Origin: a virus
Virus record (IMG/VR): IMGVR_UViG_3300010158_000294
Span: 1-25,213 of that record
Length of the DNA stretch: 25,213 nucleotides
Direction: 5' to 3' (one strand)
Below are positions 2,959 to 15,769 of this stretch, piece after piece. The first letter of the stretch is position 1, and every line of letters starts with the position of its first letter. The position numbers and the translations under genes were made by a program. The notes under the pieces were generated by a model, which saw only the letters and a list, made by a program, of their open reading frames with translations, was not told the DNA's origin and ran no database searches.

Positions 2959-3072
2959 ATGTTAATGTCACTTAAAAAAAGTTTTTTTACCGATCTTTCT
3001 GCTGCTTCGCAGCTCAAGATACAGGCTGGATGTGCCGCCGTCACTACTAGGAGTCAATCAAATGGATATTAG
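2959..3072 (+). CDS. Candidate small ORF overlapping the oxygenase start
   Basis: An ATG at 2959 (with a second at 2965) opens a 37-codon frame ending in TAG at 3070-3072, which overlaps the first codons of the oxygenase gene by 11 bases. The peptide is basic and amphipathic at its start (LKKSFFTDLSAASQLKIQAG). TATAAT at 2948-2953 is only 5 bases from the ATG, so an mRNA from it would be leaderless. The coding run contains A7 then T7. It could be a leader peptide coupling translation into the next gene, or chance; there is no Shine-Dalgarno. Confidence 0.3.
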   Translation: MLMSLKKSFFTDLSAASQLKIQAGCAAVTTRSQSNGY

Positions 3073-3856
3073 AGGAGCAGTCATACCCACATCTGCCACG
3101 CTGGGCATAGGCCTAGTATCAAGTGGTCATCGAGCACCACAACTGCCAGATCGAGTAGTGGATTCTCAGCCACTCACGGCCATAGGTTCCGGAGCCTTGC
3201 CGGCTGTGGATCACTCAGGAGGACTGCGTGTACAGCCCTTGTTCCCCACTGCGTTAGGCATGGCACAAATAGGTCGCTTGATCACCAAAGATGAAATGGA
3301 CTACTTCTACAGTCTGGAAATGGGACGCAACTCGGGCAATCTGGTCAGTGTTGAACGTCGTGTGTTGGATTCAGCCGCCATGACTGACATACGTGCTTTC
3401 ATTGAACAAAATATCGAAACCTATTTGCGGGAAATCATGTGTGGCAGCCCGGAAGTACGCCTGGTGATCACACAGAGCTGGGTCAATGTCACACAGCCCG
3501 GGCAGTTCCATCATCATCACAAGCATCCCAACAGTGTCGTCAGTGGTGTGTTCTATCCACAGGCCACGGCCGAGCGTGATCGCATACACTTCAGTCGAGA
3601 AGTGGGGCCCGAAACCATCCGGATCGATCCTACCGAATTCAACACCTTCAACAGCAGCATCTGGTGGATTCCGGTACGCACCGGCACTTTAGTCCTGTTC
3701 CCTAGCGGTCTGCATCACAAGGTAGAAGAAGTCACTGCTGGCGATGAGCGCATCAGCCTCAGTTTCAACACATTCCCTGTGGGCAATGTGGGCAACAGAA
3801 ATGATCTCACTGGCCTGTACGTAGGATCAGTTTCTGACCATAGCAGTACAGAATAG
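3062..3856 (+). CDS. 2OG-Fe(II) oxygenase (phage prolyl-hydroxylase-like), first copy
   Basis: I start at ATG 3062 because AGGAG (3049-3053) has an 8-base spacer; a GTG at 3032 lacks one. The 264-residue protein has an N-terminal low-complexity region of about 60 residues, then a catalytic double-stranded beta helix. The His cluster FHHHHKHPNS (149-158) is followed by SGVFYPQ, a beta-strand-rich segment with LVLFPSGLHHKVEE (210-223), and Arg230 in the ERISLSFNTF strand. This matches the 2OG-FeII_Oxy_5 type seen in T4-like phages: histidines at both sites bind iron and the arginine binds 2-oxoglutarate. Members hydroxylate proteins or other small substrates; the substrate here is unknown. It lies directly upstream of fibre-assembly and fibre genes, so a virion substrate is a reasonable inference. 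Confidence 0.85.
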   Translation: MDIRGAVIPTSATLGIGLVSSGHRAPQLPDRVVDSQPLTAIGSGALPAVDHSGGLRVQPLFPTALGMAQIGRLITKDEMDYFYSLEMGRNSGNLVSVERRVLDSAAMTDIRAFIEQNIETYLREIMCGSPEVRLVITQSWVNVTQPGQFHHHHKHPNSVVSGVFYPQATAERDRIHFSREVGPETIRIDPTEFNTFNSSIWWIPVRTGTLVLFPSGLHHKVEEVTAGDERISLSFNTFPVGNVGNRNDLTGLYVGSVSDHSSTE

Positions 3857-3858
3857 CC

Positions 3859-3887
3859 TATAAATACACCAGCACACAGTTTGTGTG
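3859..3887 (+). promoter_or_regulatory. T4-type late promoter with short hairpin leader
   Basis: TATAAATA at 3859-3866 is a perfect match to the T4 late promoter box, directly after the oxygenase stop codon. Transcription would start near 3873, exactly where CACACA (3873-3878) pairs with TGTGTG (3882-3887) around a GTT loop, giving a 5'-terminal hairpin. The leader then holds AAAGGAG before the ATG at 3914. Confidence 0.75.
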
Positions 3888-3913
3888 TACAGAATAAAGG
3901 AGTTAACAATATT

Positions 3914-4402
3914 ATGAATTTACTAATTAAAATGGAAAATGGACAGCCCATCGATCATCCCATCATGGAAGACAATGCTCGTATGGCCTGGCCGGAACTG
4001 GATTTCAATAACCTACCCAATTGGCTTACACGTTTCCGCCGGGTGGCACAACCCAGTGCCGACGACATGCCAGTGGGCATATTCCAACGTGCTGTATGCT
4101 CGTATGTGATAGCCGGCGACGGAGTGGTAGAAGATTCTTGGTCAGTGGAAAACATGACCGCAGAAGAACAGCAGGTGTTCACTCGTCAACGTCGCACTCA
4201 GATCAAAAGTGATATCGCAGCTTCGATCGAAATAGCCCAGACACGTGCAGCCGAAGCAGGGATTCCGGCCGAAACAGTGGCTGCTTGGAACACCTATGTG
4301 ACTGCTCTACAGGCAGTGACCGATGCTGATCTTGAAGATCCATTTGCGTTCAATTGGCCCGAGCCACCGCGCATCGCCAGTGATGGATATCCAGTAGTTT
4401 AA
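3914..4402 (+). CDS. Tail-fibre assembly chaperone-like protein
   Basis: The start is ATG 3914, with AAAGGAG about 11 bases upstream and a late promoter 48 bases upstream; the frame extends further but those codons lie in the leader. The 162-residue protein opens with NLLIKMENGQPIDHPIMEDN, followed by aromatic WPELDF and a Tyr/Phe-rich segment, then a long charged helix (about 85-120) and a Pro/Trp-rich end (FAFNWPEPPR). This layout resembles phage proteins encoded next to fibre genes and thought to help fibre folding. The location between two oxygenases and ahead of three fibre genes supports this. Assignment is by resemblance and context, not by a definite motif. Confidence 0.55.
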   Translation: MNLLIKMENGQPIDHPIMEDNARMAWPELDFNNLPNWLTRFRRVAQPSADDMPVGIFQRAVCSYVIAGDGVVEDSWSVENMTAEEQQVFTRQRRTQIKSDIAASIEIAQTRAAEAGIPAETVAAWNTYVTALQAVTDADLEDPFAFNWPEPPRIASDGYPVV

Positions 4403-4425
4403 TAGCATAAAAGGAAAATAGGCAT

Positions 4426-5196
4426 ATGAGTTTAGACCAAGCCACAGTGGTAGGTGAATCAACTGGTATAGAAATACCCACATCTTTCATGTCGGAGATC
4501 TCGGGCGCATCGCAGACGCAGCCTGCGCCAGACACAGGTCAATTGAACGTGATGACCTATTTTCCCACAGCAGTTTACAGTATTGTACGCCCGGAGTTTT
4601 TGGCCACTGCTAGGAAAGTGTGCAGTGAGTTTTTGAAAACAGCTCAGAAGAACAGACCAAAATTGGATACGCTGTACCCCTTATATCAAACTGACAATCT
4701 GTTCACGGATGCTCGCATGCAGCCCTTGGTGGAATACATAGGTGCCACTGTGTGGAATGTGTTGGAAAGCCAGGGTTATGCCATGGCCAATAATGACATC
4801 ATCTTCCACGAAATGTGGTGTCAAGAGCATCACAAGCACAGCGGCATGGACGAGCATGTGCACAATCGTGGTGCTCAAATGGTGGGTTTTTACTTTTTAG
4901 ATGTTCCGGACAACAGCAGCCGGATCGTCATACATGATCCTCGCCCGGGCAAGAAGCAGATCAATCTACCGGAAACCAACATGAGTCAGGTCACTTATGG
5001 CAGCGATGCTATCAATTTCACACCTGAGCCGGGCATGTTGTTCCTGGCCAATGCTTGGTTGCCGCACAGTTTTGGACGGCACGGCGGTAGCAAGCCCATA
5101 CGTTTCATACACTTTACAGCAGGCGTAAATCCCAAACCCTTGACATCTGCTCCTGTAATGCCATCCACAGAAGTATTACCGGCCACTATTGTATAA
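4426..5196 (+). CDS. 2OG-Fe(II) oxygenase, second divergent copy
   Basis: This is a 256-residue protein with AAGGA upstream of ATG 4426. Residues 1-40 are Ser/Thr/Gln-rich and probably disordered. The catalytic core carries the H-x-H motif DEHVHNRG (His144, His146) followed by strand MVGFYFLDVP. Then come IVIHDPRPG (167-175), the distal histidine in LPHSFGRHG (His214) and the 2OG-binding arginine in KPIRFIHF (Arg226). The architecture matches short phage 2OG oxygenases, yet it shares little local sequence with the copy at 3062-3856, so they are anciently diverged or independently acquired. The stop codon overlaps the next start (TAATG). The likely substrate is a virion protein, by neighbourhood only. 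Confidence 0.85.
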   Translation: MSLDQATVVGESTGIEIPTSFMSEISGASQTQPAPDTGQLNVMTYFPTAVYSIVRPEFLATARKVCSEFLKTAQKNRPKLDTLYPLYQTDNLFTDARMQPLVEYIGATVWNVLESQGYAMANNDIIFHEMWCQEHHKHSGMDEHVHNRGAQMVGFYFLDVPDNSSRIVIHDPRPGKKQINLPETNMSQVTYGSDAINFTPEPGMLFLANAWLPHSFGRHGGSKPIRFIHFTAGVNPKPLTSAPVMPSTEVLPATIV

Positions 5197-5516: not shown

Positions 5517-8500
5517 ATGGGATTAAGTATTACAGGTTCGGCGTCGATCAGTGGTAACATGACGATCGTGGCCACGACGGTGCCGTCAACACCACAAACT
5601 ATCGTGGTATCCTCGACCAGCTCTAGTGCTGGAGCCTCAGTTCCTGGCACATCCTATTACGGAACATTTAACGGTACTACCCAAAATCTCAGCATCAGCG
5701 GCAACACTGCTCTGGGTACCTGTAACTTCACAGCCGAAGCTTGGGTATATGTCAACAACACTGGCACATATACCATATTTGGTTCCGGTGGCGGCACCAC
5801 GGGCGCTATCTCTATGGGCATACACGGAGACGGACGTCCTTTTGCTTCGGTTGGATATACATTTGGTACCGCAGGCGAAAGCAGTTCGTTAACACTGACA
5901 CCCCCGGCTGGATACGTGATGACCAGCATCATATATGGCAGTTACGGTCGTACCACCTGTACAGGCCCTGCCGGCTGCTGGACCAGAAGTCCTAGCCAAT
6001 CAACTGGACCAGAAAAACGGGCACTGATTGAAAACTATTTCATAGGCAAAGGTACCGCTACTGTTCCTGCTAATAACTGTACCTTTGGAGATCCAGCCCC
6101 GGGCTCACCTAAATCTCTTTCAGTAGTAGCCACACATGGATTATTTGGTACAACCAGTTCTTTGGCTGTTAGAACATGGAATCATCTGGCATTGGTGCGT
6201 TCTGGTACAGGGGCCAGTCAAACTAAGTTTTATGTAAATGGCAATGCTGTTGGAACTGCCACATTGGCAACAAACTATACTGCAGGAACAAACTTCACTG
6301 TTGGAACTACCTATTACCCTGATACCCCAACAGGAGTTCTGTTTCACTCGGGCTATATTTCCAACGCCAGGCTGGTTAAAGGAGTTGATGTCTACACAGG
6401 TAACTTTACTCCACCATCATTACCGTTGACATCTACTCAGTCTACTGCTACCAATATCAACTCTATCGCAACAGCAACATATGTTCAATTTTTGACACTA
6501 CAAGGTTCTACCATAGTGGACAATGGCGGAAATGCCAGAACCGTTGTCAATGCCGGAACTGTTGCGATGACAGGTCCCACAGCAGTCACTATTGGCAGCA
6601 GCAATATATCGGTTATTCCGGGCACTGTCAATGCTGTCGTGAGCTGGACCGCTCCTTCCAGTTCGGGTACATTTCCTGTAGATAGTTACACACTGAGTTC
6701 TATACCTTCAACAACTGCGACTTTTTCCACTGCGACTGTGCTGCCATATACAGTAGGATCCGGAGTTACATCGGTAACTGTGACTGGATTGACTACCGCC
6801 ACCTATTACACGTTTGGAGTGTCTGCCACAAGTCTCAGCGGTACCAGTCCAACTACATATTCTAGCACTATATTTTATAACAATAACGGTACTCCTGTAA
6901 GTTTATCTACCGGCACATATCCTAATCTGCCGACTGCTCCTAATATCTCACTTCAATCAGTAGCAGGAACCACTGTGGTTATCGCAGTAAGTAGTGCAAC
7001 TATCGCAGTATCAACTGCAACTTTGCCCACTTACGGAGTCATAGTCACAGCCAGTCCTGGCGGAGCCAGCCAAACACTATATAGTTCTTTTGGCGGTGTA
7101 TATCCTGTTTCTACATCTTCATATAATTCAACAGGTACATTGACATTCAGCGGATTAACAGCAAATACCGCTTATACATTCTCTGCTCAAGCAGTCAATG
7201 CCATAGGATATTCTACTAATGCAGTTAGTACATCTACCACCACTGGAGCAGCACCTAGCAGTAGTTTGTATGCATATCCAGGAAGTTATACATGGGTAGC
7301 ACCGGTAGGGGTTACCGCAGTTAGTGTGGTAGCAGTTGGTGGTGGGTCTTCTGGACGAGGCAATGACGGTAATAACAACAGCGGTGCCGCCAGCAGTTTT
7401 ACACTGGCAGCAGCACCGAATGCTGTATATGCTTCAGCAGGCGGGGGAGGTGGCATCGGAGGAGGCACCGTTGCCACAGGCACCGGATTTGCCGGTGGTG
7501 CCGGTGGTGCTTCACCTTCCGGAGTATATGGAGGCGGGGGAGGCGGAGCAGGCGGCTATACTGCCGCCGGTGGCGTAGGAGGTGCTCCTGGAAGCGGCGG
7601 AGTCGCCAGTACCGGAGGTGGCGGTGGTGGTGGGGGTGGTACCAATGGCGCAAGTAGCGCAGGTGGCGGCGGTGGAGTTAGTGTATTTGGAGCAGGAGTC
7701 AACGGCTCAGCCGGCGCAGTAGGTGTATCCGGAACCGGCGGAAGTAGCGGACTCAATGGAGGTCCAGTTGGTGTCGGAGGATCGGGTGGGTTATTTGGAG
7801 GTGGTGGTGGTGGAACTTATAGAGGCTGCGGCGGTTTTGTGGGCAATGGCGGTGGTGCAGGCGCGCTTGCTTACGCAAATAATATATCAGTCTCCCCGGG
7901 TGTGTCTTATACAGTGACTGTTGGAGCAGGTGGTACCAATACTGGCATGTCTGGTGGTAGCGGTGCTGTGCGTATCGTTTGGCCAGGAACTGTTAGACAG
8001 TTTCCAAGCACACAGGTTTGCGGTAGCTATTGTACTGTTGCTACCACAACATCAAGTGCATATGTTCCTCAAGCACCTACTATCACGTCTGTTTCGGTTA
8101 CCAGTGCTACACAGGCAACAGTAATATATACCGTTGGTACCTATTCAGGTGGTGCGTCTGTAACCAGTGCTACAGCCATAATTTCTACAGGATCTACCAC
8201 TGTCGCCACTGCCAGCGTCAATACTGCCGGAAGTTACCAAATTGTAGTCAACGGATTAGTTGCGGGTCCATATCTAGCAACTGTGTATACCTCAAATGCC
8301 TATGGAAATAGCAACACTAGTTCTTATGTTGCCTTTACTGCTGCCGATCGAGAGCAAATATTTACATACAGTGCTCCAGGGGCATTTACCTTTGTTGTTC
8401 CATCCGGCATTACATCAGTCAGTGTGGTTGCTGTAGGTGGTGGTGGTAGCGGTGGTGTCAATGGTACGAATGGTAGTCCTGGCGGTACAAGTTATTTTAG

Positions 8501-9197: not shown

Positions 9198-9220
9198 GTT
9201 TTAAATCGTTAATATTGATC

Positions 9221-11122
9221 ATGGTAGCCATAACAGGACAAGTAGCAATAACAGGGAGTATCAGTGTAACTCCCAGTTATCTGCCTGTACCTACATTTGT
9301 TACCACAGCAACCGGATCCGGAAATAATTTGGTTACAGTTAACTTGGCACCACAGGACGGGGGAACATGGGGAATATGTGGTTATCAAATAACCAATTTT
9401 CCTTCTACTACTTCTACTATCGTATTAAACACAACATCAGCAGTGGTAGTGGTTCCAAATACCACTACATATTTCAAATTCATTGTGACTCCTTATAACT
9501 ATGTTGGCCTAGGTTCGACCGCAACTACCAGTACCATAGCAGCCGGTTTTCTCGGTGCTGCCGTAAATTCAAATTCGTATAACCTACCTGTGTCGCCAAC
9601 TCTTTCAGCTGTGCCTGTTGTGGTCAGTAGTTCTACACAGACTATTGTTATCACTGTAAACAGCGTGACAAATACTGCTCCTGCTATTTCTACATACGCC
9701 ACTGACATTTTTATAATTCCCGGAGGAACCACAGCCACAGTTCTTAACACCAACGTGGGAATAGGATCAGGAGTATATAATAGCACAGGTACCACATCAT
9801 TTACAGGGCTAACCCGTGCTACCAGTTATATTTTCAGCTCGCAGGCTTATAATGCTATAGGCTATGCTACCAGTGCTACTTTGACCACATCAACATACGG
9901 TTTGCCAACTACTCCTGGTATTTCAGCAGCAACAGCATCGGCACCAGCAGGCTCTTCACAGATCAATGTCACAGTCGGTGCCACGCAAAATCTCTGGTCA
10001 TTACCTACCATTGGTGTTATTGTTACAGCCAGTCCTGGTGGACAACAGAAAACTTTAGTTAGTACCAATTCCAATACCAATGTTGTTCCAAGTAGCAACT
10101 CAACCGGTGTTTTATCTTTTACAGGATTGACCGCTAGCACTGCTTATACTTTTACAGCCCAGGCATTTAATAATGTAGGATTTGATACAAATAGTACCAC
10201 AGCAAATGCCTCAACAACTGTAGCGCCAGGAAGTCAACTATATTCTACCACAGGACCGTATACATTCACTGTACCAACAGGTGTTACATCAGTTAGCGTG
10301 GTAGCAGTTGGCGGTGGTGGTAGAGGTTCTCAGAGATATATTCCGGGTATTGCTGGAGGGTGTTCTTCATTCAACGCACCCACAGGAGTAGTTGCCGGTG
10401 GTGGCGGAGCGTATATATTATCCCCGGCATCACCTTATAGTGGTCCATTAGGTACTCCACCGGGCGGTACCGTTACTGTTGGTACTGGCGGCACAGGCGG
10501 CACAGGTGGTGGTGGCCCACTAGCTAACACTAGTCCACAAGGACGAGGTGGTGGTGGTGGTGGTGGAGCCGGTGGATATGCCGGTGCCGGTGGCGGCGGT
10601 GGTAATGGCGGCGCTGGTACCGGATTTGCCAGCCCTGGAGGCGGTGGGGGCGGTGGTTCAGGTGCTGTCTGTATTGGGCCGGCCTTATATGGTGGTGCCG
10701 GTGGAGGAGGAGTTGGCGTTTGCGGACAGGGTACTAATGGATCCGGTGGTGTTGCAAATACCGGAGCCTCAAGTCCGCTAGGCGTACCGGCCGGTGGTGG
10801 TGGTAGCGGTGGTGGCAGCGGTACCAATGGATCCGTTGGTTCTTCTGGCGGAGCAGGCGGCTGTTACGGTGGTGGTGGTGGTGGTGCTTCTATCTCTCTT
10901 GCTAGTGCTCCAACAGCACCATTCAGCGGAGTTGGAGGCAGTGGTGGTGCGTTAGCATATAAAAATAATATCAGTGTCAGTCCCGGCCAATCGATACCGG
11001 TAGTGGTCGGCGTAGGTGGTGGATCACCTGCCTCGACTAACCGAGGAGCACCCGGTGCTGTGCGTATTATTTGGCCAGGAAGCTCCAGGTCCTTCCCAAG
11101 TACTTGTGCCGGTGCTCCATAA
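9221..11122 (+). CDS. Tail-fibre/adhesin paralogue 2: FN3 and one Gly-rich module
   Basis: I start at ATG 9221 (MVAITGQVAITGSISV); a TTG two codons upstream is possible, and neither has a Shine-Dalgarno. The 633-residue protein is the shortest of the three paralogues. After the shared ITG-type N-terminal tag come three beta-sandwich segments of fibronectin-III type (about 22-118, 123-220 and 228-335), recognisable by the FTGLT..TSY.F..QAYNAIGY pattern. One glycine-rich domain (about 340-628) opens YTFTVPTGVTSVSVVAVGGGG and ends GAVRIIWPGSSRSFPS. The repeat ASPGG..KTLVS is shared with the first fibre. Only 23 bases separate it from the previous stop, so both genes probably share one late mRNA. 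Expected role: fibre or adhesin. Confidence 0.85.
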   Translation: MVAITGQVAITGSISVTPSYLPVPTFVTTATGSGNNLVTVNLAPQDGGTWGICGYQITNFPSTTSTIVLNTTSAVVVVPNTTTYFKFIVTPYNYVGLGSTATTSTIAAGFLGAAVNSNSYNLPVSPTLSAVPVVVSSSTQTIVITVNSVTNTAPAISTYATDIFIIPGGTTATVLNTNVGIGSGVYNSTGTTSFTGLTRATSYIFSSQAYNAIGYATSATLTTSTYGLPTTPGISAATASAPAGSSQINVTVGATQNLWSLPTIGVIVTASPGGQQKTLVSTNSNTNVVPSSNSTGVLSFTGLTASTAYTFTAQAFNNVGFDTNSTTANASTTVAPGSQLYSTTGPYTFTVPTGVTSVSVVAVGGGGRGSQRYIPGIAGGCSSFNAPTGVVAGGGGAYILSPASPYSGPLGTPPGGTVTVGTGGTGGTGGGGPLANTSPQGRGGGGGGGAGGYAGAGGGGGNGGAGTGFASPGGGGGGGSGAVCIGPALYGGAGGGGVGVCGQGTNGSGGVANTGASSPLGVPAGGGGSGGGSGTNGSVGSSGGAGGCYGGGGGGASISLASAPTAPFSGVGGSGGALAYKNNISVSPGQSIPVVVGVGGGSPASTNRGAPGAVRIIWPGSSRSFPSTCAGAP

Positions 11123-11191: not shown

Positions 11192-14100
11192 ATGGCTTTA
11201 ATAATCAGTTGCGGAGTACAATTTTCTGGTGATATTTCGATAGCTTCTTACGGAGTTGCTACGGCTCCCACCATAGGAACAGCCTACATGTCCAGTGCTA
11301 CCACAGCAGTGGTCGCATTTACTGCTCCTATCAGTGTTCTACCTATCACCAGTTACACCGCGGTCAGCACACCCGGTGGAATCACAGGTACATTAAATAG
11401 CGCAGGCAGTGGTAATATTGTTGTCAACGGATTGAGTTCTACAACAGTGTATACATTTGTTGTATATGCTACCAGCGGTGCTGGCAACGGTCCTACCAGC
11501 GCTCGTAGCAATATAGTTTGGCCGTATGGATCCGGTCAGGCCACATATGTGAATACCGGTTCATACGTATGGGCGGTACCAGCGGGTGTTAACAGCATTA
11601 GCGTGGTCGCAGTAGGTGGAGGCGGTGGTGGTGCAGCGCCCGGGTGTCCATATAACGGCAGTGGTCAAGGACCATCTTCATTTAGCAGCGGACCAGTTGT
11701 AGTAATACAAGCAACAGCCGGTGGCTCACAGACAAGATTTTCTGCTGGTGCGCCTGCTAGCGTAGGTGGTGCTGGTTCTGGTAGCCCGGGCGCTGTTGGA
11801 TATTCCGGTGGTGGTAGTCCAAAGCCTGGTTGCGGCGGCCCAAAAAGCGGCGGTGGCGGTGCTGCCGGTTACGCCGGTAACGGTGGTACTGGTGGACAAT
11901 CCACCCCCGGCAATGCCGGCGCCGGAGGTGGCGGGGGTGGTGGTTATTTTGGTACTACCAACGGTGCCGGAGGCGGCGGTGGTGTTGGAATATATGGTCA
12001 AGGTGCCAGCGGAGCAGCTGGCACAGCAGGACCCAATTATGGTGGTGGTGGTGGCGGTGGATCCGGTGGCGTTTCCGGCGCGTGTGGATCCACCGGTGGA
12101 AGCATTGCCGGAGCATACGGTGGCGGTGGCGGAAGTTTAAGTCCATTCTTCAGTGGCGGTAGTGGTGGTGGACTGGCTTATATCAATAACTATAGTGTTA
12201 GTCCCGCAATTACGTATACGGTTGTAGTGGGCGGTGCCGGTGCTGCTACAGTTAATGGTGCCACTGGTGGAGTAGGAGCGGTACGCCTTGTTTGGCCGGG
12301 AAATGCCAGGTCTTTTCCAACCACCTACGTAGTTGATTGTACAGTAAGCACCGCCAGTTCATTTTTAGTACCGCCTGCTCCTACACTAAATTCAGTTGTT
12401 GTCAACAGTAGTACGCAGGCCACAGTGACATTCACTGCTGCTGCTCCTACCGCGGTAACCTTGCCCACATATCAATTCACAGCAGTGGCCAGTGCTACCT
12501 CTAGAGCAACGGTCACTGCTTCTATCAGCACCTCAGGAAGTTACAGTTTTCCAGTGACCGGTTTGACTCCATTGACAACCTACACATTCTATCTGTATGC
12601 TACTAATTTAGCAGGTGATAGCAGCAATAGCAACAGTATTAACAGTGCCACATATGTAGCAAGTGGTAGCTCACTGTACACTTTTCCGGGCACTTACTGT
12701 TGGGTAGCACCTTCGGGAGTTACTGCGGTTAGCGCAGTTGTTGTAGGTGGTGGTGGTGGCGGAGCATACCCAGGCTCCACTGCCCCTGCACTTACCGATG
12801 GTGGTGCTAGTTATTTTAGATCCACCTGTGTAGTAAGAGCCACTGGTGGTGGTGCCGGTTGTACGGCGACTCCATACCCTGTAGGAGCAGGAGGATCAGT
12901 TACAGCCGGAACTGGTGGTGCCGGTGGATCTGGCAGCGCACAACCGGCACCAGGAAGAAATCGAGGTGGAGCAGGTGGTGGAGCCGGTGGATACAGCGGC
13001 GCAGGTGGAGCAGGCGCACCGGGAACTACTGGCAACTCTGGCTCCGGTGGCGGTGGTGGTGGTGGCACAACTATTGTATCCGGAGTCAATGGCGGTTCTG
13101 GCGGCGGTGGGGTTGGATTATTTGGCCAAGGATGTAGTGGCGCAGGCGGCACCCCAGTATGTTCTGGTACCATCACCGGAGGAAGAGGCGGCTCTGGAGG
13201 TCTTAACGGCGCAAGTTCTCCTGGAAACGGCGGAGGAGCAGGCGGCCTATTTGGCGGTGGAGGTGGCGGTGGTAGTCCTGGCGCAGGTGCCGGTGGTGCT
13301 GGTGGAGGCGGGGCGCTGGCATACATCAATAATTATTCAGTAACTCCTGGATCAAGTTATCCGGTTGTAGTAGGTGCCGGTGGAGCAGCACCATTAACTG
13401 GTGATGGTGGAAAAGGAGCTGTACGTATCGTTTGGCCTGGACAGGTTCGACAATTTCCAAGTACCAATGTAGGTGCTTTTGAAACAGATACTGTAACCTT
13501 GAACCAATCATATGTACCAAGTGTGCCTACTGTAACATCAGTATCACCAAGTAGTTCCACAGCAATTACAGTTAATTTCACAGCACCTACATATGCAGGA
13601 GGATCGGCCGTTACCAGTTATACTGCTGTGGCTACTTCGGGCACGACAGTTGTAAGTACCGGTAATATATCCACAGCAGGTAGTTACTTTGTTCTAGTAC
13701 GTGGATTAGCACCACTTACCTCATATTCATTATCTGTGTACGCCACCAATGCTTATGGAAACAGTACCAGCAGTAATAGTCTTAGTACTTCAACACTTGT
13801 GGCAAGTAGTAGTACCGTGTTTATTTTTCCAGGAACTTATTCCTGGGTAGCCCCAATAAATGTCACATCAGTTAGTGTAGTTGCTGTAGGTGGCGGTGGT
13901 GGTGGTAAAGGTTATCCTGTCGCTCCATCTGCTGGTGGGCTTAGTTCGTTTTATTCCTCTCCGCCTGCACCACAAGCATCTACTAATATTGTTACTGCCG
14001 GCAGCGGCAGTAGTGGTTGCACGTCACGCACGCCGGGCACGTCCAGCTCCGGCGCACCTGGCTATGTTTCTTATGCCGGCGGCGCCGGTGGAACATCCAG

Positions 14101-15769
14101 CACAGCGTGTGGTATGTCAGGAGGCGGCGGTGCCGGTGGTTACTCAGGAGCAGGTGGCGCCGGCGCGAGTGGCAATTCAAGCGCAAATGGAACTGCCGGA
14201 ACCGGAGGAAGCGGTGGTGGTGGAGCATCTGGCACCACTACTAATCCGGGCAAGGGCGGCGGAGGTGGCGGAGGAGTTGGATTATTTGGCCAAGGCGGTT
14301 GCGGCACCGGCGGAATTGCTGCCGGCTGTCGCGGCGGCGGTGGCGGAAGTAGTGGTCTTGCTGGACAAAACTTTACTCCTAATATTGGCGGAGTTGGCGG
14401 ATTGTTTGGTGGCGGCGGTGGCGCAAATAACGCAACACCTAACGGCGCATCATGCGGTGGTTTTGGTGGTCATTTAGCATACATCAACAACTACGCAGTT
14501 TCTCCGAGCATTACTTATACTGTAACAGTTGGTGGCGGAGGCGCTTCACCTGGCGGTACTGGTGCTAGCGGTGCAGTTCGCATCATTTGGCCAGGTCAGG
14601 CTAGATCTTTCCCAAGTACCAATGTAGCTCAGAGTTACGAAACTGATACAGCAACTATAAATCAAACATATGTGCCTAGCGCACCCACTTTATCATCTGT
14701 AACACCAAATAGTTCTACAGCGATTACAGCCAGTTTCACAGCACCAACATATTCGGGAGGATCAGCTGTTACCAGTTATACCGCAGTGGCCACTACAGGT
14801 ACTACAACATTTATAAGTACCTCTGTTAGTACTACCGTGGTAATATCCGGGCTGACTCAACTTACCACATATTCAATATCTGGATATGCCACTAACTCGT
14901 ATGGTAATAGTACTAGTAGTAATAGTCTTACTGCTGCTACATATATACAAAACGGTAGCCAGTTGTATACTTCAGCAGGCAGTTATACATGGACAGTACC
15001 TTCTGGAGTTACATCAGTTAGTGTGGTTGCAGTAGGCGGCGGCGGAGCAGCAAGGACGGTCGCGCCAAATACACCTACTTCCGGAACTCTTAGTTCTTTC
15101 TATACTGCGCCACAGGCACCGGTGGCTACCACTAATCTTCTTACCGCCGGCGGCGGCACCACCTCACCGAGCGGTGGTTCTGGTGGTACTGTTAGCGTTG
15201 GCAGCGGTGGTTCTGGTGGTGCTGGTGGTGCTGCCGGCGCTTGTAATCAAGGCAGCGGCGGAGGTGCTGGTGGATACTCAGGAGCAGGTGGTGCAGGTGC
15301 AAGTGCCGGGTTAGATGGATCAGCAGGCGCCGGTGGCGGAGGTGGTGGTGGTGCCGGTGGCAGGAGTCCAAATAACGCTGCCGGTGGCGGTGGTGGTGTT
15401 GGATTATATGGCGAAGGTGCTAGCGGTGCCGCTGGTATCGCTGCCGGCTGTAAAGGTGGTGGTGGCGGTAGCGGCGGCGCGACCGGACAAAATCGTTGCG
15501 TTACAAACAACCGCGGCGGAAATGGCGGATTGTATGGTGGTGGTGGTGGCTCAGGTGGCAGTGGCGCCTTGGCCGGCGGAGGCGGTGGTGCTTTAGGATA
15601 CATCAATAATTATACTGTTACATCGGGCAGCAATTTTACAGTGACAGTCGGATCGGGCGGAACTACATCCTGCGGAACCTATGGCCAAGGTGCTAGCGGC
15701 GCAGTTCGTATCATCTGGCCAGGACAGGTTAGACAGTTCCCAAGTACCAATGTGGGCACATCGCCTTAA
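11192..15769 (+). CDS. Giant tail-fibre/adhesin paralogue 3: four FN3-Gly-rich modules
   Basis: At 1525 residues this is the largest protein in the window. The N-terminal tag MALIISCGVQFSGDISI resembles those of the other two fibres. Four tandem modules follow, each about 95 residues of fibronectin-III plus about 260 of glycine-rich sequence. Glycine-rich parts lie at about 118-376, 489-755, 871-1138 and 1254-1516. Each starts with T/SxxSYxWxVPxGVxSxSVVAVGGGG, contains a conserved GLYG/GLFGQG core and AYINNYxVSPG, and ends GAVRIxWPGxxRxFPSTNV. FN3 units show AVTSYTAVATSG and Y.L.VYATNAYGNSTSSNSL. No chaperone domain or C-terminal protease is visible. Probably an outer fibre or adhesin carrying variable loops. 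Late box 30 bases upstream; no clear Shine-Dalgarno. Confidence 0.87.
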   Translation: MALIISCGVQFSGDISIASYGVATAPTIGTAYMSSATTAVVAFTAPISVLPITSYTAVSTPGGITGTLNSAGSGNIVVNGLSSTTVYTFVVYATSGAGNGPTSARSNIVWPYGSGQATYVNTGSYVWAVPAGVNSISVVAVGGGGGGAAPGCPYNGSGQGPSSFSSGPVVVIQATAGGSQTRFSAGAPASVGGAGSGSPGAVGYSGGGSPKPGCGGPKSGGGGAAGYAGNGGTGGQSTPGNAGAGGGGGGGYFGTTNGAGGGGGVGIYGQGASGAAGTAGPNYGGGGGGGSGGVSGACGSTGGSIAGAYGGGGGSLSPFFSGGSGGGLAYINNYSVSPAITYTVVVGGAGAATVNGATGGVGAVRLVWPGNARSFPTTYVVDCTVSTASSFLVPPAPTLNSVVVNSSTQATVTFTAAAPTAVTLPTYQFTAVASATSRATVTASISTSGSYSFPVTGLTPLTTYTFYLYATNLAGDSSNSNSINSATYVASGSSLYTFPGTYCWVAPSGVTAVSAVVVGGGGGGAYPGSTAPALTDGGASYFRSTCVVRATGGGAGCTATPYPVGAGGSVTAGTGGAGGSGSAQPAPGRNRGGAGGGAGGYSGAGGAGAPGTTGNSGSGGGGGGGTTIVSGVNGGSGGGGVGLFGQGCSGAGGTPVCSGTITGGRGGSGGLNGASSPGNGGGAGGLFGGGGGGGSPGAGAGGAGGGGALAYINNYSVTPGSSYPVVVGAGGAAPLTGDGGKGAVRIVWPGQVRQFPSTNVGAFETDTVTLNQSYVPSVPTVTSVSPSSSTAITVNFTAPTYAGGSAVTSYTAVATSGTTVVSTGNISTAGSYFVLVRGLAPLTSYSLSVYATNAYGNSTSSNSLSTSTLVASSSTVFIFPGTYSWVAPINVTSVSVVAVGGGGGGKGYPVAPSAGGLSSFYSSPPAPQASTNIVTAGSGSSGCTSRTPGTSSSGAPGYVSYAGGAGGTSSTACGMSGGGGAGGYSGAGGAGASGNSSANGTAGTGGSGGGGASGTTTNPGKGGGGGGGVGLFGQGGCGTGGIAAGCRGGGGGSSGLAGQNFTPNIGGVGGLFGGGGGANNATPNGASCGGFGGHLAYINNYAVSPSITYTVTVGGGGASPGGTGASGAVRIIWPGQARSFPSTNVAQSYETDTATINQTYVPSAPTLSSVTPNSSTAITASFTAPTYSGGSAVTSYTAVATTGTTTFISTSVSTTVVISGLTQLTTYSISGYATNSYGNSTSSNSLTAATYIQNGSQLYTSAGSYTWTVPSGVTSVSVVAVGGGGAARTVAPNTPTSGTLSSFYTAPQAPVATTNLLTAGGGTTSPSGGSGGTVSVGSGGSGGAGGAAGACNQGSGGGAGGYSGAGGAGASAGLDGSAGAGGGGGGGAGGRSPNNAAGGGGGVGLYGEGASGAAGIAAGCKGGGGGSGGATGQNRCVTNNRGGNGGLYGGGGGSGGSGALAGGGGGALGYINNYTVTSGSNFTVTVGSGGTTSCGTYGQGASGAVRIIWPGQVRQFPSTNVGTSP

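Follow-up and report, generated by a model that had tools for sequence, protein, structure and literature searches.

A probable phage fibre protein with a SUEL-type lectin domain nested in its LamG jelly roll

SUEL or rhamnose-binding lectin domains are already known from animals, from bacteria and, through UniProt names, from uncultured Caudovirales. The bacterial example is RemA of Flavobacterium, a gliding adhesin. In animals, the canonical carbohydrate-recognition domain of the rhamnose-binding lectins is marked by a DPC motif and by eight cysteines that form four disulfides (PMC3269628). Latrophilin-1 holds L-rhamnose by Glu42, Tyr63, Gly117 and Lys120; rhamnose is bound about 80-fold more weakly after the substitution E42D or E42Q, and no longer at all after E42A, K120R or K120A (PMC2430599). 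The affinity of the single site is weak, with a Kd of 1.8 mM; Tyr63 contacts the rhamnose whereas Arg65 is buried and structural, and a disulfide, Cys83-Cys115, joins the DPC cysteine to one in loop1 (PMC2430599). In SUL-I, the sugar contacts are Glu7, Asn71 and Asp76 (PMC10377782). The other partner in the architecture described below is the LamG/concanavalin-type jelly roll, which is found in cyanophage baseplate proteins and jumbo-phage fibres (PMC7824862). Among the papers searched for SUEL or rhamnose-binding lectin domains in phage, none was about SUEL domains of phages; discoidin, LamG and SPRY domains are named in a survey of jumbo phages, which mentions neither SUEL nor rhamnose.

The window analysed here is a stretch of 25,213 nucleotides of DNA from an IMG/VR virus record (IMGVR_UViG_3300010158_000294, positions 1 to 25,213). 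In one of its proteins, a SUEL domain interrupts a LamG jelly roll of the same type as those of cyanophages and jumbo phages (Table 1). The domain has the length, the fold and the Glu/Asn/Asp (Lys/Gly) site of SUL-I from Toxopneustes pileolus (5h4s) and CSL3 from salmon (2zx0), and it shares YGR with SUL-I. However, the two animal lectins are secreted tandem proteins with four disulfides and DPC, whereas the window domain is a single copy inside LamG, with DPA and other cysteines. The novelty lies in the nesting within LamG, together with an intact site in an altered cysteine pattern. We propose, at a probability of roughly 0.7, that this protein serves an uncultured tailed phage as a virion adhesin, and that a loop of its LamG holds a whole SUEL domain that most likely binds sugar. 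Homology, the predicted fold, the nesting and the conservation of the site carry this proposal; the virion location, the binding of sugar, the kind of sugar and a role in adsorption are what it would add to them.

Table 1. Positions of the features in the window
Feature	Position	Strand	Basis
Tail fibre assembly-like protein, upstream of the fibre-like gene	3881..4402	+	phrog_188 E 1.8e-5
Fibre-like gene, 1226 aa	5517..9197	+	ORF; Pfam LamG + fn3; phrog_4474
LamG jelly roll, N-terminal part, residues 46-114	5652..5858	+	Laminin_G_3 positions 1-61; phage LamG profile positions 2-67
Inserted SUEL-type lectin domain, residues 115-209	5859..6143	+	phmmer, profile, predicted model
Glu121, sugar-contact position (Glu42 latrophilin-1, Glu7 SUL-I)	5877..5879	+	201/206; PMC2430599, PMC10377782
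Tyr143-Gly144-Arg145, YGR motif	5943..5951	+	Y 204/206; PMC2430599
Cys148 and Cys154, loop1, off the usual loop1 cysteine column	5958..5978	+	sequence, alignment
Asn187, sugar-contact position (Asn71 SUL-I)	6075..6077	+	201/206; PMC10377782
Cys188 (NNC), just before FGDP	6078..6080	+	sequence
Loop2: Asp192, Ala194, Gly196, Lys199	6090..6113	+	D 206/206, G 205/206, K 206/206
LamG jelly roll, C-terminal part, residues 210-306	6144..6434	+	Laminin_G_3 72-134; phage LamG profile 74-167
Second fibre-like gene, FN3 + Gly-rich modules	9215..11122	+	ORF, Pfam, phrog
Third fibre-like gene, FN3 + Gly-rich repeats	11192..15769	+	ORF, Pfam, phrog

The motifs from which a sequence-only reading had recognised the domain (SYGRT with its YGR, GKGTATVPANN and GDPAPGSPKSLSV) do stand in SUEL order and in one frame, at residues 142-204 of the ORF. 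The limits it gave, 5874-6137, fall within the domain, which is slightly wider than that, at about 5859-6143. When the insert alone is compared with sea urchin SUL-I, phmmer gives E = 4e-17 over query residues 3-90 of 94. A profile made from the insert and 25 relatives (SUEL-like domains of viral contigs) and run against the PDB finds SUL-I at 8e-53, CSL3 at 5e-26 and, at 3e-22, the bacterial surface adhesin RemA of Flavobacterium (PDB 8gl6), which has a SUEL-type domain too; the latrophilins follow at about 1e-8 to 1e-5, and rice beta-galactosidase is also matched. The Pfam model PF02140 (SUEL_Lectin) matches the insert alone weakly, at E 0.01 and 16.6 bits against a gathering cut-off of 31.4 bits, and is not listed in a Pfam scan of the whole protein. 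The cut-off is passed by eight of the ten viral-contig relatives tested; identity to the insert among the relatives is roughly 32-45%. Because these relatives pass PF02140 and the profile reaches SUL-I at the value given, residues ~115-209 are, as judged by sequence comparison, a homologue of SUEL/rhamnose-binding lectin domains. The insert is thus a SUEL homologue that lies below the Pfam cut-off and is not a canonical animal rhamnose-binding lectin: YGR is present at residues 143-145, DPA replaces DPC, and there are three cysteines, at non-standard places, instead of eight. No PHROGs model and no NCBIfam model matches it. Direct searches of the viral contigs with the insert, or with the whole LamG and SUEL region, gave no close relative, and tblastn with the insert against 50,697 isolate phage records found none. 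A signal of recent transfer was sought in G+C, which does not differ between the insert (50%), the N-terminal LamG part (50%) and the gene (51%).

The insert is predicted to form a fold of its own, of the SUEL type. In a model made from a joint alignment of SUEL and LamG relatives, to which the window row was added as many trimmed copies with a lower effective depth, the pLDDT values of the insert are mostly 70-91, falling to 56-58 in loop1, and those of the LamG strands are mostly 50-88 (mean 67, pTM 0.67). Residues 80-175 of this model superpose on SUL-I with Z 12.1 (rmsd 2.5 over 86), and the model superposes on latrophilin-3 (5afb) with Z 12.3 (rmsd 2.2 over 87). SUEL domains are matched over model residues 75-176, by superposition and by Foldseek too, and jelly rolls over residues 12-279, where some 160 residues align and the insert is skipped; the best jelly-roll matches are the pentraxin domain of PTX3 (Z 14.5) and sialidase CBM40 domains (Z 14). 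The SUEL rows in its alignment account in part for the SUEL fold of this model; the sequence homology is the independent leg. In the control alignment, which holds LamG relatives only and no SUEL rows, the jelly roll folds again (Z 12.5) and the insert is unstructured, with pLDDT about 28-47. Since LamG folds there while the insert does not, the insert does not belong to the LamG sheet, and continuity of this segment with the sheet is rejected; the models separate the insert from the jelly roll. The weak PF02140 score could still suggest that the insert is an elongated LamG loop with a likeness to SUEL arising by chance. Given the two SUL-I values, the conserved site residues in order and the separate fold, we reject this explanation as barely credible.

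The interruption of LamG is seen in the profile matches. Laminin_G_3 (PF13385) matches the whole protein in two stretches, at E 2.7e-11 and 44.3 bits with a cut-off of 27.6 bits, and the halves scanned alone cover positions 1-61 before the insert and 72-134 after it. When the insert is removed, they become one continuous match over positions 1-133, with 60 bits. From FTxExW to WxHxA the distance is 144 residues in the window protein; in 149 LamG copies taken from related viral proteins it is 45-72, and nine of nine related viral LamG domains are without an insert at the corresponding place. The C-terminal part is closed by the signature GYISNxRxVKGxxVYTxNFTPP, of which related copies are known; LamG copies of cyanophages share it, but those examined are without the insert. 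The SUL-I homology, the split Laminin_G_3 match and the long spacing together bear out the earlier suggestion of a SUEL domain nested in the LamG of a probable fibre. A LamG match is found in 19 of 262 SUEL ORFs, and SUEL lies between LamG halves only in the window protein, where "only" is limited to this sample and to a LamG profile that derives from the window's relatives and fails to detect some LamG domains, such as that of locus L043, which Pfam finds. The other 18 ORFs are all from bacterial genome contigs and have SUEL and LamG side by side; in the Bacteroidota proteins examined, the two domains likewise occur together but are not nested. In L043 (5682-6755, 358 aa), SUEL stands between a DGLIQYLDPA strand, a typical start of phage LamG proteins, and the remainder of the Laminin_G_3 domain, and this is possibly a second, different nesting site.

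LamG copies without an insert are very common in phage virion proteins (at least 565 in one scan), and LamG may itself be the working receptor-binding domain, with the SUEL insert as an accessory that serves, for example, in loose binding of exopolysaccharide. We consider such a division less likely, as the insert and its pocket show sequence conservation and no decay; it would, in any case, be compatible with sugar binding by the insert. The six published sugar-contact positions are all kept in the window domain (E121, Y143, N187, D192, G196 and K199). At each of these columns, at least 200 of the 206 full-length phage and bacterial SUEL domains over which conservation was counted have the conserved residue. 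The fold and the Glu/Tyr/Gly/Lys rhamnose contacts are shared with the RBL domain of mouse latrophilin-1 (2jx9). At the third position of YGR, Arg is rare and Thr is found in 132 of 206; Arg145 is as in animals, and the animal-like YGR is unusual among phage relatives, most of which have SYGT.

Ala194 stands at the column of the DPC cysteine, which is Cys in 198 of 206 domains. The loop1 and loop2 cysteines are both present in 197 of these domains, both absent in eight and mixed in one; this joint presence or absence clearly points, at the level of the alignment, to a disulfide in the phage and bacterial domains. The window domain belongs to the group with both absent, and the usual loop1-loop2 disulfide is missing from it; the exchange of Cys for Ala is therefore part of a coordinated loss. 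DPA or DPV is also found in other relatives without the loop1 cysteine, and the exchange, which had been called unusual, is not peculiar to this domain. Cys188 possibly pairs with Cys148 or Cys154 in a putative substitute bridge.

Loss of the disulfide also speaks for a rival reading of the function. The RBL domain of latrophilin-1, an animal receptor domain of weak sugar affinity, has the loop1-loop2 disulfide, unlike the window domain. Latrophilin SUEL domains bind protein partners, and sugar weakly (PMC2430599). The PDB matches of the profile and the model include teneurin, FLRT and TOL-1 complexes, and it is conceivable that the window protein has kept the SUEL fold for protein-protein contact (with a receptor protein, in fibre trimerisation or in docking) and not for sugar. 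This seems unlikely to us, since rhamnose and galactose are abundant on bacterial surfaces and the window domain has lost none of the six contact residues. Substitution of the Glu or the Lys is frequent in domains believed not to bind sugar (PMC2430599).

The protein as a whole is a probable phage fibre. This reading is based on the assembly-like gene upstream, the two fibre-like genes downstream and the virion annotation of the LamG relatives, which are annotated as baseplate or structural proteins of cyanophages. LamG, with SUEL inside, is followed by FN3 modules and two Gly-rich modules, and the sole PHROGs match of the protein is phrog_4474, of unknown function. The sequence-only reading had placed the insert at a receptor-binding tip; this label is not justified, as residues 115-209 of 1226 are close to the N-terminus and the FN3 and Gly-rich modules come after them. 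Pfam finds no SUEL or LamG match in the second or the third fibre-like gene. Similar short ITG..ITG/SGxxxI stretches start the three consecutive fibre-like genes (at 5517, 9215 and 11192) and may be a shared attachment motif. On either side of the assembly-like gene is a 2OG-Fe(II) oxygenase gene (3032-3856 and 4426-5196, each phrog_81), and this group (3032-5196) directly precedes the fibre gene. The replicative helicase of the window is nearest to those of large phages of Agrobacterium and Pseudomonas. In other viral contigs, neighbours of SUEL genes match tail families.

For the virion adhesin that we favour, we propose the following. One inter-strand loop of the N-terminal LamG jelly roll would have taken up a SUEL domain of about 95 residues. 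The inserted domain keeps the pocket in which animal SUEL/rhamnose-binding lectins hold L-rhamnose or D-galactose without calcium; its most likely ligands are therefore sugars of the host surface (O-antigen, capsule) such as rhamnose, galactose or similar ones. This contact would be reversible or of a co-receptor kind, and because the affinity of a single site is weak, several copies per virion would be needed, so that multivalence of the virion would offset the weak site. The nested SUEL domain with its intact pocket residues suggests a way for a phage to grip the sugars of its bacterial host. Counted against this explanation are the sub-cut-off Pfam score, the lack of a relative of the exact insert, the missing loop1-loop2 disulfide, a fold partly dependent on SUEL rows, the protein-binding SUEL domains of latrophilins and the weakness of a single site.

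The window domain has company in viral sequence. Two UniProt entries of uncultured Caudovirales, A0A6J5PD65 and A0A6J5NGG5, bear the automatic name "D-galactoside/L-rhamnose binding SUEL lectin domain containing protein", and the latter superposes on the window domain over 95 columns at 1.8 A with 35% identity. Viral contigs were scanned for N-x2-FGDP-x2-G-x2-K, and more than 80 of the loci found encode SUEL-like domains. SUEL is widespread in uncultured viral contigs (loci L001-L119 and L129-L208), where a single scan yielded at least 104 matching stretches, and these domains often stand between Pro/Ser/Thr-rich linkers or adjoin PA14 or FN3. A shortened SUEL-like motif, about 60 residues long, C-x2-E-[GN/A]..YG[ATG]..C-x-N-x2-FGDPA-x-G-x2-K-x-C, occurs at L028:796-834, L032:3662-3700, L369:267-305, L373:12005-12043, L374:5686-5724, L375:2556-2594 and L376:6746-6784; it is sometimes found twice per protein, keeps the sugar-site residues and is without loop1. 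No significant Pfam match was obtained for five of five such proteins tested, and from its sequence the motif is a candidate unnamed mini-lectin.

Tentatively, and at somewhat less than even odds, SUEL domains may form a large, little-noticed receptor-binding class in uncultured phages. They would be exchanged as cassettes, set beside other adhesion domains or into LamG loops (here, and perhaps in L043), adding a second sugar specificity to a common scaffold while its ends are unchanged. As SUEL is common in environmental contigs and tblastn with the insert found none in isolates, cultured phages may under-represent host recognition of the SUEL type. If our reading is true, a lectin family best known from animal eggs would be a loop-grafted binding module in phage fibres. 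If the sugar is bound as predicted, this would provide a testable receptor, a glycan of the rhamnose or galactose type, for an uncultured phage directly from its sequence.
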